DNA of 44,841 nt from the NCBI GenBank assembly GCA_903915465.1, contig CAIWTA010000137.1, positions 1-44,841 of the forward strand. The letters are read 5' to 3'. Position numbers and translations under genes: made by a program. The notes beneath the pieces were generated by a model. That model did no database searches. It was not told the DNA's origin and saw nothing but the letters and a program-made list of their open reading frames with translations. How positions within the stretch are numbered: the stretch's first letter is position 1; each line of letters begins with the position of its first letter. Shown here in pieces: positions 28,894 to 34,529 of this stretch. Origin of the DNA: an uncultured Bacteroidales bacterium (GTDB lineage Bacteria > Bacteroidota > Bacteroidia > Bacteroidales > FEN-979).

Positions 28894-28913
28894 GGTGATT
28901 GGTTGATTATTTT

Positions 28914-29011
28914 CAGATCTCGGATCTCACATCTCACATCTCAGATCTCGGATCTCAGATCTCAGATCTCGGATCTCGGATCTCGGATCTCGGATCTCAC
29001 ATCTCACATCT
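28914..29011. repeat. Tandem array, 14 units of 7 bp
   Basis: Fourteen perfect 7-bp units of only three kinds, CAGATCT, CGGATCT and CACATCT. Starting at 28914 the order is CAG, CGG, CAC, CAC, CAG, CGG, CAG, CAG, CGG, CGG, CGG, CGG, CAC, CAC (each followed by ATCT). It lies 18 bp before the DUF4492 start. Confidence 0.95.
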
Positions 29012-29029: not shown

Positions 29030-29242
29030 ATGAACTTCTTCAAAAAAATCTTTCTCTTCTATTATGATGGATTCCGGTCGATGACGGTTGGGAAAAAGCT
29101 CTGGATCGTCATCCTGATCAAACTTTTTATCATTTTTATTATTCTTCGGCTTATCTTTTTTCCCAATTTCCTCAAATCTAAGTTTTCGGGTGATAAAGAG
29201 CGTGGTGACTACGTTCGTGAACAGTTAATCAAAAGGAAATAA
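29030..29242 (+). CDS. DUF4492 family small membrane protein
   Basis: 70 residues: an N-terminal FFKKIFLFYYDGFRSMTVGK segment, one membrane helix (about 23-44), and a basic C-terminus ending EQLIKRK. This matches DUF4492, a Bacteroidota family found immediately upstream of cydAB. Its role is unknown; the genomic link suggests a part in assembly or regulation of cytochrome bd. The gap to cydA is 92 bp and contains a separate promoter, so cydAB can also be transcribed without it. Confidence 0.82.
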   Translation: MNFFKKIFLFYYDGFRSMTVGKKLWIVILIKLFIIFIILRLIFFPNFLKSKFSGDKERGDYVREQLIKRK

Positions 29243-29334: not shown

Positions 29335-30912
29335 ATGACTGACACCATTGACCTTAGCATGGTAGATTGGTCGCGGGCGCAATTTGCCCTGACGGCAATT
29401 TACCACTGGTTATTTGTTCCTCTCACCCTTGGGCTTTCTTTTATCGTTGCCATCATGGAAACGATCTGGGTTAAAACCGGAAATCCTGAATGGAAGAAAA
29501 TCACGAAGTTCTGGATGACGCTTTTCGGGATCAACTTTGCCATTGGAGTAGCAACCGGTATTATACTCGAATTCCAATTCGGGACCAACTGGTCGAACTA
29601 TTCCTGGTTTGTAGGTGATATTTTTGGAGCACCATTAGCAATAGAAGGAATTATGGCATTTTTTCTGGAATCGACTTTTATTGCCGTAATGTTTTTTGGC
29701 TGGAACAAAGTCAGCAAAGGGTTTCATCTCACAGCAAGCTGGTTGACTGCCATCGGGGCCAACCTTTCGGCCCTCTGGATTCTCGTTGCCAATGCATGGA
29801 TGCAGTACCCGACCGGGATGAAATTTAATCCGGACAATGCGCGCAATGAAATGGCCAATTTCTGGGATGTCCTGTTCTCTCCTGTTGCAGTGAATAAATT
29901 TCTACACACCATTTCCTCCGGGTATGTAACTGCTGCTGTATTCGTCATTGGCATCAGTGCATGGTTTTTGCTAAAAAACCGGAACGTGGATTCGGCCAAA
30001 CGCAGCATCCTGGTAGGAGCTATATTTGGTCTTATCACAGCCATATTCCTGGTCATCACTGGTGACGGTTCTGCTTATAACATGGCACAAAAGCAACCCA
30101 TGAAACTGGCCGCGATGGAAGGTTTGTATAAGGGAACCAGCCCGAACGGACTGATCGTTTTCGGAATACATTCCGGCGATAAAAAAGTTGAGGATGGAAC
30201 GGGTGGAATTAATGTAAAACTCGAGATCCCCAGGTTGTTGTCATTACTTGGTTATCGTAATGGGAATGCTTTTGTTCCGGGTATTGAGGATATTCTTAAA
30301 GGAGGCTTCAAGCCGGAATTCCAGAATGTACCACCGTTAGAAGTAGATAAAGCTTTTTCAGCGGAAGAAAAAATTGCACGCGGTAAATTGGCCATTGCTG
30401 CCCTTGGCGATTACAAGCGAGCCAGGCAGACAGGTGATATAGCTGCAACCAATAAAGCCGACAGTTCCCTGAAAGTCAATTTTCCCTATTTTGGTTATGG
30501 CTATCTGAATTCTCCAGACAGCATAATTCCAAATGTCCCATTGACTTTTTACAGTTTCCGCATCATGGTTTACCTTGGAGGATTCTTTATCCTGTTATTT
30601 ATCTTCACGCTCTATTATGCACGCAAACAGACCTTGGAAACCAAACGCTGGTTCCTTTGGTTGCTGCTATGGTCAATTCCATTGGTTTATATTGCCGGTC
30701 AGGCAGGATGGATTGTGACTGAAGTTGGCCGTCAGCCCTGGGTTATCCAGGACCTTCTTCCAACAGTTGCAGCCGTTTCGATGATCGATGCTACATCTGT
30801 TCAGATCACTTTCTGGCTGTTTGCAGTGTTGTTTACCGCACTTCTGATTGCGGAAGTGATGATTATGACCAGGCAAATTAAAATCGGACCTAAAGATGGA
30901 GGAACCAACTAA
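29335..30912 (+). CDS. cydA: Cytochrome bd ubiquinol/menaquinol oxidase subunit I
   Basis: 525 residues with about nine membrane segments. With CydB it forms the high-affinity bd oxidase, which oxidises quinol and reduces oxygen to water. The heme ligands are visible: His24 in AIYHWLFVPLTLG, His191 in NKFLHTISSGYV and Met411 in FRIMVYLGG, corresponding to E. coli His19, His186 and Met393. The acidic GAPLAIEGIMAFFLEST helix is also present, as is GWIVTEVGRQPWVIQ. The quinol loop lies between the central helices (about residues 255-400). Its stop overlaps the cydB ATG by one base. Confidence 0.96.
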   Translation: MTDTIDLSMVDWSRAQFALTAIYHWLFVPLTLGLSFIVAIMETIWVKTGNPEWKKITKFWMTLFGINFAIGVATGIILEFQFGTNWSNYSWFVGDIFGAPLAIEGIMAFFLESTFIAVMFFGWNKVSKGFHLTASWLTAIGANLSALWILVANAWMQYPTGMKFNPDNARNEMANFWDVLFSPVAVNKFLHTISSGYVTAAVFVIGISAWFLLKNRNVDSAKRSILVGAIFGLITAIFLVITGDGSAYNMAQKQPMKLAAMEGLYKGTSPNGLIVFGIHSGDKKVEDGTGGINVKLEIPRLLSLLGYRNGNAFVPGIEDILKGGFKPEFQNVPPLEVDKAFSAEEKIARGKLAIAALGDYKRARQTGDIAATNKADSSLKVNFPYFGYGYLNSPDSIIPNVPLTFYSFRIMVYLGGFFILLFIFTLYYARKQTLETKRWFLWLLLWSIPLVYIAGQAGWIVTEVGRQPWVIQDLLPTVAAVSMIDATSVQITFWLFAVLFTALLIAEVMIMTRQIKIGPKDGGTN

Positions 30913-32075
30913 TGTTTGAAACGTTATCATTATCCTGTTTACAGCAATACTGGTGGGTTATCATATCCCTGTTGGGTGCGCTGCTTGTTTTCCTTATGTT
31001 TGTCCAGGGAGGTCAAACGCTCCTTTATACGCTTGGGAAAACAGAAGCCGAGCGAAAAATCCTCATCAATTCATTGGGAAGGAAGTGGGAATTTACCTTT
31101 ACTACCCTTGTTACGTTTGGCGGAGCCTTTTTTGCTTCATTCCCATTGTTTTACTCTACCAGTTTCGGTGGAGCATATTGGGTGTGGATGGCAATCCTGT
31201 TCTGCTTCATCCTTCAGGCCGTTGCTTACGAATTCCGCTCAAAACCCAATAATTTCCTGGGTCACCGGACATACGAAATCTTTCTGTTTATCAATGGTGC
31301 ACTGGGAACCATCCTTATCGGGGCCGCAGTTTCCACTTTTTTTACCGGCTCACAATTTATCGTCAACAAATTAAGCCTTACCGAACTCACAAACCCGGTA
31401 ATCTCACGATGGCAAGGAGGTGCCCATGGACTTGAGGCGGTTCTCAACTGGCAAAATGTGGCGCTTGGCTTAGCTGTTTTCTTTCTTGCACGCATCCTTG
31501 GGATCCTTTATTTCATTAATACTGTAAGCGATAAAAATATTATGGGAAGGACAAAAAAACATCTGCTCATCAACGCTGTTCCTTTCCTCGTATTTTTCCT
31601 TGCTTATGTCTTTGCCTTGGTTCTGGGTAAAGGTTTTGCAGTAGATCCCGTCAACGGTACTATTTTCATGGAGGATTACAAATATTTGCACAACCTGATT
31701 CAGATGCCGATCGTACTGATCCTCTTTGTTATCGGCGTTCTGGCAGTTCTATTGGGCATCATTCGTCCTTTGGTGAATTTTGAGAAATGCGGATCAAAGG
31801 GAATCTGGATTTCAGGAATAGGAACGATTCTGACCGTTTTCTCCCTCCTGCTGCTCGCAGGATTCAACAATACTTCGTACTATCCTTCAACTTCTGATCT
31901 GCAGAGTTCACTGACGATCCATAACAGTTCTTCCAGTCATTACACCCTGACTGCCATGAGCTATGTTTCACTGCTTATTCCATTTGTGCTTGCTTATATC
32001 TGGTATGCATGGAGGTCGATCAACAACAAGAAAATCGATGCAGCGGAAATGGAATCGGATAGTCATGCATATTAA
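30912..32075 (+). CDS. cydB: Cytochrome bd oxidase subunit II
   Basis: 387 residues with about nine membrane helices. Visible features are QQYWWVIISLLGALLVFLMF, VQGGQTLLY, and the WEFTFTTLVTFGGAFFASFP and SKPNNFLGHRTYE segments of the CydB family. The ATG shares its A with the cydA stop (TAATG), so the two subunits are translationally coupled. The protein supports CydA, holds the di-heme site and stabilises the complex. A third, very small reading frame (CydX-like) follows after 44 bp. Confidence 0.95.
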   Translation: MFETLSLSCLQQYWWVIISLLGALLVFLMFVQGGQTLLYTLGKTEAERKILINSLGRKWEFTFTTLVTFGGAFFASFPLFYSTSFGGAYWVWMAILFCFILQAVAYEFRSKPNNFLGHRTYEIFLFINGALGTILIGAAVSTFFTGSQFIVNKLSLTELTNPVISRWQGGAHGLEAVLNWQNVALGLAVFFLARILGILYFINTVSDKNIMGRTKKHLLINAVPFLVFFLAYVFALVLGKGFAVDPVNGTIFMEDYKYLHNLIQMPIVLILFVIGVLAVLLGIIRPLVNFEKCGSKGIWISGIGTILTVFSLLLLAGFNNTSYYPSTSDLQSSLTIHNSSSSHYTLTAMSYVSLLIPFVLAYIWYAWRSINNKKIDAAEMESDSHAY

Positions 32076-32119: not shown

Positions 32120-32230
32120 ATGTATCTCTCATCAATCATCTGGTATCTGACATGGCCGATTCTGATTTATGTTTCTTACAGGATAATCCTTTGTTCCGTT
32201 AAAAAATACGAGAAGAAACAGTTGGGATAA
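32120..32230 (+). CDS. CydX-like small membrane protein, 36 residues
   Basis: A small reading frame after cydB begins MYLSSIIWYLTWPILIYVSY and continues RIILCSVKKYEKKQLG to TAA. It has a Trp-rich single helix followed by a basic tail, the layout of CydX/CbdX-type third subunits (one helix with N-terminal Trp, charged C-terminus) that stabilise the bd oxidase hemes. It lies on the same strand, 44 bp after cydB. The similarity is in form and position rather than in clear residue identity. The downstream gene is convergent, so this ORF is the last of the operon. Confidence 0.65.
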   Translation: MYLSSIIWYLTWPILIYVSYRIILCSVKKYEKKQLG

Positions 32231-32246
32231 GGAGAAATTTTATCGG

Positions 32247-34529
32247 CTATTTCTTTCCCGGGCAATAACGTTGTATCAACATTGCTGCCTGCCTGTTCCC
32301 GAGAGTCATTGCCTTTTGCCAGTCCTGGCAAGCGCCAGCAATGTCATTTAATTCAAGCTTTGAAGTTCCTCTTCCAAGATAAGCATCAGCATAGTCCGGG
32401 TTGATTTGTATGGCGCGAGAAAAATCTTCTATGGCCTCTTTGAAATTTTTCAAAGCTGCAGCTTTCACGATTCCACGGTTGTTGTACGCTTTGAAATAGT
32501 CTGGTGAAAGGCGGATCGCTTCATCATATAACCTCATTGCACCCGGAATATCTCCTTTTTTGTATTGCTCATTTGCATTGTTGAACTTCTGTTTTGCCTC
32601 CTGGTCTTGTGGATCTTCCATGCCAGGCTGAATAATCCGCTTTTGTTCCTCATAGAATTTTCTCAGGCCGTTTGTTGCTACGATATTCCCTTGATCAAAA
32701 CGCAGAATCTGTCGATAGCAAATAGAGGCCTTTTCCAGATCTCCTTTGGCTGAATATATGTCTGAAAGAGCATAGTAGATAAACTTATTTCTCCCGTCCG
32801 TTCTCCTCAGATTTTCGAGTAAAAACTTTTCAGCAACAGGATAATTTTTAAATTGTAAAAAGAATGAACCGAGATTGAGTAAATCATCACTTTGAAAATC
32901 CTGATTTTCCCAAAAACCCTCCATGAAAGCACGGAATGAAGCGTGTGGTTCTGTTTCAAGGATTCGCCTGACCGAAGATTCATCAAGATTGCAGGGGATA
33001 TTATACAGGCGAAACAACGAATCAATGTCAATCTCCTGAAGATTTTTGGAATAATTTGTCCGGGCAAAGATGACAGTCAGACCATCGATATAAATCAGCC
33101 GCCAATCAGGCATTCCCAAAAGCTGAACAGTCCAGGGAAAATATTTGACATAGTTGTAGATGATCAGATCTGCCTGATACTTATCAGCCAAATCCGCCAA
33201 ACCGAGTTTCCAGCTTTCTGTCAGTTCCTGGTAGAGATCTTCCCTGACCACTTCGAGACGTCCATCGATGAAAACAGGTTGCGGCAACCTCCATGAAAGC
33301 CATCCTCCCAGGCTGATTCCATTGATTATCCGCCAGTTAAGCCCGTTTTGCAGCAAATAACCAGCGGCTTTTTCCGGCAACTGCCGGGAATCGAGACCAA
33401 TACCTGTTTTTGTATATTCATGATTATCTGCATAATATGATCCTGCAATTATTCTTGCGATTAATGCAAGTGGAAGAAGAATCATCAGGATGACTCCGGA
33501 AATCCTGAAAATTCGCAGGTTACGTTTCAACCAGACAGCATTTACTTTTTCACGAATAAATGCTGAAATATCAACCAGAGAAAAGCAGAGGATTGGCATC
33601 CCTACTATAGCAAAAAGTGCAATATTCCTGACCGAAACAAAGGCAAGGTAAGCGAAAACTACCAACAGAAAAAAATCATGGAATACCCGCTTTTTCCAGG
33701 TCAGGATTGCACAGATGAAAGTAAAAGCCAGAAAAATCATAAAGAGGATGTCTTTGAATAAGAACCGGTCCAGGTCGAAAAATGATTTCAATTCCTTAAT
33801 ATGCTCATGAAAAATATTGTTCGGATCAAACCGTGTAAAGAGTTCCAGCGGAAAGGTAATTACCTTAGTAAAATATGGATTGACAAAACAAACCATGACC
33901 GCCATGATCATCCATAAAAGAAATGATTTTTCAATTTTTTTATCACGGATCATAAGGCTTACAAAATATGCGCCCGCCAATGCGAAACCCAGGATAAATA
34001 AGCCGTGCATATTACACCAGAAAAGCATTATGACCGGAAGGAGGAACAGGTGATTCCGGCGATGATAATAATAGTCATCCAGAATGATCAGAAATAGCGT
34101 AAGAAAGAGAAAAGTAAACATCTCCGGGCGAAGTGAAATCCTGGTTTCCATGATGAGGAATCCGAACAAAAAAACAAAACAGGAAATATGGAGTGGAACC
34201 TTTTTCCTTTGATTGCGGATCAGCAAAAGGACCAATAATCCAAGCATTGAAAACATCCCCAGGATACTTAATCCATTGTATCCGATGATTTTATAAATAG
34301 AAAAGACAAACACCTGGAACAGCCAGTTCATATCGGTGTAATCATGGCTATTGACGGTATAAGTAAATGTGTCTTTTTCAGGAATGGCTTTGTTCTGGAC
34401 AATCCATTTCCCTGCTTTCAGGTGCGAGCCGATATCAGGATCTGACAACTTTCGCATTGACAGGAAAGCGATCAAAAAAGTGACAAGGATAAACGGGATT
34501 ATCCAGCTTGATTTATATTGATTCTTCAT
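32247..34529 (-). CDS. GT-C-like polytopic membrane protein with C-terminal TPRs
   Basis: 760 residues. Residues 1 to about 400 hold ten or more membrane helices. The first loop carries DPDIGSHLKAGKWIVQNKAIP then DTFTYT, a motif of the GT-C-like membrane proteins related to protein mannosyltransferases, with the acidic pair expected to bind metal and lipid-phosphate sugar. Residues about 400-550 form a soluble region. At about 575-745 come TPR repeats (YALSDIYSAKGDLEKASICY, DEAIRLSPDYFKAYNNRG, DYADAYLGRGTSKL). It may be an inner-membrane glycosyltransferase or glycan-modifying protein, but the substrate is unknown. It is convergent with the cyd operon, only 16 bp from the CydX-like stop. Confidence 0.65.
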   Translation of the reverse strand: MKNQYKSSWIIPFILVTFLIAFLSMRKLSDPDIGSHLKAGKWIVQNKAIPEKDTFTYTVNSHDYTDMNWLFQVFVFSIYKIIGYNGLSILGMFSMLGLLVLLLIRNQRKKVPLHISCFVFLFGFLIMETRISLRPEMFTFLFLTLFLIILDDYYYHRRNHLFLLPVIMLFWCNMHGLFILGFALAGAYFVSLMIRDKKIEKSFLLWMIMAVMVCFVNPYFTKVITFPLELFTRFDPNNIFHEHIKELKSFFDLDRFLFKDILFMIFLAFTFICAILTWKKRVFHDFFLLVVFAYLAFVSVRNIALFAIVGMPILCFSLVDISAFIREKVNAVWLKRNLRIFRISGVILMILLPLALIARIIAGSYYADNHEYTKTGIGLDSRQLPEKAAGYLLQNGLNWRIINGISLGGWLSWRLPQPVFIDGRLEVVREDLYQELTESWKLGLADLADKYQADLIIYNYVKYFPWTVQLLGMPDWRLIYIDGLTVIFARTNYSKNLQEIDIDSLFRLYNIPCNLDESSVRRILETEPHASFRAFMEGFWENQDFQSDDLLNLGSFFLQFKNYPVAEKFLLENLRRTDGRNKFIYYALSDIYSAKGDLEKASICYRQILRFDQGNIVATNGLRKFYEEQKRIIQPGMEDPQDQEAKQKFNNANEQYKKGDIPGAMRLYDEAIRLSPDYFKAYNNRGIVKAAALKNFKEAIEDFSRAIQINPDYADAYLGRGTSKLELNDIAGACQDWQKAMTLGNRQAAMLIQRYCPGKK

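Follow-up and report, generated by a model that had tools for sequence, protein, structure and literature searches.

The window analyzed here, a stretch of 44,841 nucleotides from an uncultured Bacteroidales bacterium, contained a cytochrome bd (cyd) operon on the + strand in the order DUF4492-cydA-cydB-X, where X denotes a small frame. The first gene (29030..29242) encoded a DUF4492 protein of 70 aa (Pfam PF14899, E 9.2e-29). It was followed by cydA (29335..30912; PF01654, E 1.7e-170), encoding subunit I of a long-Q-loop cytochrome bd, and by cydB (30912..32075; PF02322, E 1.6e-69), encoding subunit II. X started with ATG, occupied positions 32120..32230 of the + strand and encoded 36 aa (MYLSSIIWYLTWPILIYVSYRIILCSVKKYEKKQLG); its place, strand, length and sequence were exactly those given in the original prediction. 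The same was true of the 44 nt gap between the end of cydB at 32075 and the start of X, and of the 16 nt between the stop of X and the convergent gene. The latter (32247..34529, - strand) encoded a membrane protein with TPR repeats; it lay outside the operon and bounded it. A scan expected to return 0.4 sites by chance detected no terminator-like site around the end of X, so the operon end was defined by gene order alone.

All heme ligands of the window CydA were present in the alignment: H24, H191, M411, E104, and E463, equivalent to H19, H186, M393, E99, and E445 of the E. coli type. Its Q-loop had the same length as in CydX-bearing enzymes, and its closest PDB matches were E. coli bd-II and bd-I. 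A gene for DUF4492, a domain of unknown function, preceded cydA in the window; the same held for most cyd loci of Bacteroidales whose sequence reached far enough upstream, Bacteroides without the small downstream gene included. This gene has been named cydW in P. gingivalis, where cydWAB is polycistronic (PMC4668044). Immediately 5′ of the DUF4492 gene, 14 tandem heptamers (TCAGATC/TCGGATC) were located at 28913-29011; such arrays recurred across the genome, with 96 pattern matches at ≤2 mismatches and 0 matches for the reversed control.

Conservation and Coding Constraint of the Small Gene

The length of X alone was unremarkable, as 88 frames of ≥25 aa overlapped the surrounding 7 kb; X stood out from chance frames because of its conservation. 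A leave-one-out profile, from which the window sequence was excluded, matched X at E 2.7e-19, and the runner-up frame of the window scored 0.38. Short frames with the core I-[IL]-W-x-x-x-W-P-x-x-I came after cydB in the loci of related genomes. Profile A1 (27 rows), applied to 393 genomes sampled from Bacteroidales, produced matches at E ≤0.1 in 170 of them, the weakest of which were chance. The positions of 122 strong matches were checked; cydB was listed in the genome for 112, and all 112 were directly 3′ of cydB on the same strand, with a gap of 6-614 nt (median 25).

The median pairwise pN/pS was 0.44 in the X frame vs. 0.92 and 1.31 when the frame was shifted. For close pairs, the value in the X frame was mostly 0.16-0.35, and codon position 2 was the most conserved position in the X homologues. 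The original prediction had suggested a search for a short W/P frame 3′ of cydB in relatives and an inspection of the codon substitution pattern, and it named the lack of either signal as grounds for giving up the gene. The frame was found in most Bacteroidales examined and the constraint in the X frame only, so neither ground applied.

Searches of Pfam, NCBIfam, and PDB returned no sequence matching X, and family scans with permissive E-values gave scattered chance matches only. Such a lack of matches, together with the fact that 36-codon frames are common by chance, would be expected if X were an untranslated chance open frame in the 3′ flank of cydB. However, start-to-stop peptides were kept after cydB across many families, the leave-one-out match was strong, and the constraint was confined to one frame. 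Conservation and codon constraint thus ruled out the chance frame, to which we assign a negligible probability. Judged by these sequence comparisons, X is a real protein-coding gene conserved across the order Bacteroidales. Its family has neither a Pfam nor an NCBIfam model and is a ready target for annotation pipelines.

Distribution and Probable Loss

At least 110 of the 147 Bacteroidales genomes with a listed cydB carried X, and the remaining 37 had no X among the matches listed. Among 174 distinct cydB loci, 44 were without X; this 130:44 relation of carriers to non-carriers is not a prevalence, because the locus sampling favored carriers. The carriers included Carboxylicivirga sediminis, Plebeiobacterium sediminum, Labilibacter sediminis, and Marinifilum breve. 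DUF4492-cydA-cydB without X occurred in Bacteroides fragilis, B. gallinarum, and Paludibacter and, by annotation, in Parabacteroides distasonis. X was also missing in several relatives of the same family and in one relative of the same genus as the window genome. The oxidase is therefore able to exist without X, since X was missing from cydB loci of relatives including Bacteroides fragilis. Close relatives that differ in the presence of X but have almost the same CydAB provide a natural experiment.

The presence of X changed at least 15 times on the CydB tree (174 sequences), compared with 39.5 times with shuffled labels. This indicated that X was inherited but repeatedly lost or, less likely, gained. 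In the sample of the phylum outside Bacteroidales, no X match was present among the best 19 scored candidates per genome; window-type cydB (E 1e-20) was not found outside the order in the same sample either.

Marinilabilia, Thermophagus, and Anaerophaga (L206, L207, and L211) had a divergent X after cydB (e.g., MSYLGSVLMYCIWLATIAIGYFASEYAIKKFDKRWKEK...), in which the Trp and the acidic position were kept and the proline was lost. Some Bacteroidales genomes (G657, G667, and G731) possessed two cydB copies, and in G657 and G731 both copies were directly trailed by their own small gene.

Residue Pattern, Predicted Topology and CydX-Like Register

Weighted residue frequencies over 133 distinct homologues were highest for P13 (98%), I6 (93%), I16 (93%), and W12 (90%), followed by E or D at position 31 (88%), K28 (75%), W8 (74%), Y20 (73%), and S19 (71%). 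The W8..W12-P13 core corresponded to positions 32141..32158 of the + strand. Conservation had a period of 100-105 degrees per residue, as in a helix, which placed the conserved residues on one face. A transmembrane helix was predicted at residues 6-27 (32135..32200, + strand) from the hydrophobic stretch and the periodic conservation. Lysine and arginine were concentrated at the C-terminus (~3.2 per homologue in columns 24-34 vs. 0.13 in columns 1-8). With the positive-inside rule, this bias suggested that the C-terminus is cytoplasmic, with E/D31 at the position of CydX Glu25.

X was compared by hhalign with nine CydX sequences, namely that of E. coli, confirmed in PDB 6RKO, and eight from annotated plasmid operons. 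The probability was 73-78%, and the P-value was 1.7e-5 (3e-5 for A1). The register placed W8-x3-W12-x18-[E/D]31 of X on W2-x3-W6-x18-E25 of CydX, so that E31 of the window protein (32210..32212, + strand) fell at the place of Glu25. When the columns of the CydX core were permuted 200 times, no permutation scored as high as the real alignment; in this test, the local match covered 10 columns with a probability of 47%. X was linked to cydB and had a CydX-like residue pattern; the profile similarity between X and CydX in this fixed register had moderate support (probability 47-78%).

Proposed Role in the Oxidase

X is very probably a single-helix membrane protein that is encoded by the last cistron of the operon and serves a long-Q-loop cytochrome bd quinol oxidase as its third subunit, most likely as a small stabilizing one. 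The original prediction had interpreted X as a small third cyd subunit; synteny, codon constraint, and the CydX-like register supported this, and from them we infer that X is physically associated with the oxidase. Long-Q-loop CydA is the type that carries CydX or CydY (PMC4325964). E. coli CydX sits on transmembrane helices 1, 5, and 6 of CydA and clamps the bundles that bind the hemes; its C-terminus faces the cytoplasm, and Glu25 serves as a float on the surface of the membrane (PMC6853902). AppX (CbdX) is placed like CydX, and CydX is cited there as required for active-site stability or assembly (PMC8585947).

Judged by anatomy and homology, X would insert into the membrane with an outward N-terminus and a cytoplasmic, basic C-terminus. 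The W/P/I/Y face of X would pack on CydA helices 1, 5, and 6, as CydX does in E. coli, and E/D31 would end the helix where the membrane meets the cytoplasm, like Glu25 of CydX. Docked in this way, X might hold the heme-binding helix bundles of CydA and so serve the assembly and stability of the oxidase. One locus (L165) had cydA, cydB, and X in one shared frame, and its read-through translation was folded by AlphaFold2 with 26 further rows. The model was poor (pLDDT of 67, pTM of 0.53), and its short linkers would need to cross the membrane, so that it carries no information on docking. CydA helices 6 and 5 ranked top individually in covariation with X; pooled over helices 1, 5, and 6, there was no significant enrichment, with 192 of 519 shifts as high. 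Neither the model nor the covariation affects the conclusion.

Two other roles were considered. X might be an accessory membrane peptide, such as an assembly factor, a regulator or a heme-delivery helper, rather than a subunit that binds stoichiometrically where CydX does. The patchy presence of X, which switched about 15 times on the CydB tree, would suit such a peptide, as would the covariation result (192 of 519 shifts as high) and the presence of a second small protein, DUF4492, in the operon. However, the register, charge pattern, and position of X were those of CydX, and the C. jejuni protein that has W, P, and Y in common with X binds CioA (PMC11955535); we regard the accessory role as unlikely. 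A different site on the enzyme would also be conceivable. More than one kind of single-helix bd subunit exists (PMC6853902), and X could occupy a site like that of E. coli CydH (YnhF), a subunit by which the lateral channel for oxygen to heme b595 is blocked. CydH is, however, encoded outside the operon and X after cydB, and in the comparison with CydX the motif register of X equaled that of CydX; a CydH-like site appeared very improbable. The reading of X as a stabilizing third subunit of the CydX kind therefore remained preferred.

The bd oxidase of Bacteroidota has so far been treated as two subunits plus CydW. In P. gingivalis, a study that sought CydX, CydY, and CydZ detected none of them (PMC4668044). 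Our literature search covered open-licence papers only, so absence is not proven; it returned no description of a subunit like X in Bacteroidota. If a third subunit is widespread in the order, structural or inhibitor work on these enzymes would need to include its co-expression.

Comparison with Known Small Subunits of Cytochrome bd

X was not formally CydX, since the CydX model PF08173 matched none of 27 X homologues and the defining glycine was absent. When PF08173 was searched against the window's own genome, an unrelated sub-threshold match (E 2.08) was the only hit, and the resemblance of X to CydX stayed under the cut-offs of all curated models. The CydX motif is YxxWxxGx15[E/D] (Allen, 2014, PMC4325964); W12 (91%) and E/D31 (85%) of X were correctly spaced for it, an aromatic residue stood at -3 in 44% of the homologues, and the glycine was present in 0 of 133. 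X did share with CydX its place immediately 3′ of cydB and a long-Q-loop CydA encoded in the same operon, as well as a similar length, a single helix, and W-x3-W-x18-[E/D]. In contrast to CydX, X had a proline after the second Trp and a basic C-terminal tail and lacked the glycine. CydX has been reported from Alpha-, Beta-, and Gammaproteobacteria only (PMC4325964). The term 'CydX-like' in the original prediction therefore held in the sense of working like CydX, as operon position, size, helix, Trp spacing, and the acidic residue showed; it did not hold as membership in the family, given PF08173 and the glycine.

CydZ (DUF2474, PF10617) of the cyanide-insensitive oxidases is, like X, a small Trp-bearing helix encoded after cydB, and it accompanies short-Q-loop CydA (PMC4325964). 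Hhalign detected no relationship between X and CydZ/DUF2474 (probability 0.8%); this, together with the long Q-loop of the window CydA, ruled out a CydZ identity. It also indicated that the CydX signal was not a generic trait of small Trp helices. Like X, CydW/DUF4492 is a small membrane protein encoded in this operon, but it is a separate protein of 70-82 aa encoded before cydA.

The gene for CydY of Epsilon- and Deltaproteobacteria follows cydB in operons that have a long-Q-loop CydA and no cydX; CydY has a conserved Trp, and CydY operons have a small hydrophobic gene upstream (Allen, 2014, PMC4325964). CydY has been validated in C. jejuni as CioY, a protein of 34 aa with conserved W, P, and Y that is encoded after cydB (Froschauer, 2025, PMC11955535) and co-precipitates with CioA (PMC11955535). 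X and CydY/CioY agreed in their place directly after cydB, 34-36 aa, one helix, W/P/Y, and the long Q-loop; the W, P, and Y, known from a verbal description, were present in X as W12, P13, and Y20. The operons agreed as well, as both lacked cydX and had a small hydrophobic gene before cydA, here DUF4492. CydY/CioY differ from X in belonging to another phylum, and the comparison covered their published descriptions.

We speculate, at about even chances, that an ancestral DUF4492-cydA-cydB-cydY operon was common to Bacteroidales and Campylobacterota. Its small subunits would be homologous to each other and structurally equivalent to CydX, kept by free-living Bacteroidales and lost in the host-associated Bacteroides, Parabacteroides, and Porphyromonas. 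If this is true, the oxidase of these three genera must be stabilized differently. The name CydY has also been applied to E. coli YnhF/CydH, which is a different protein. On the features compared, X appears to fit CydY/CioY, which the original prediction did not name, better than CydX. It would then be a variant of the small subunit of cytochrome bd that works like CydX and is possibly CydY itself.
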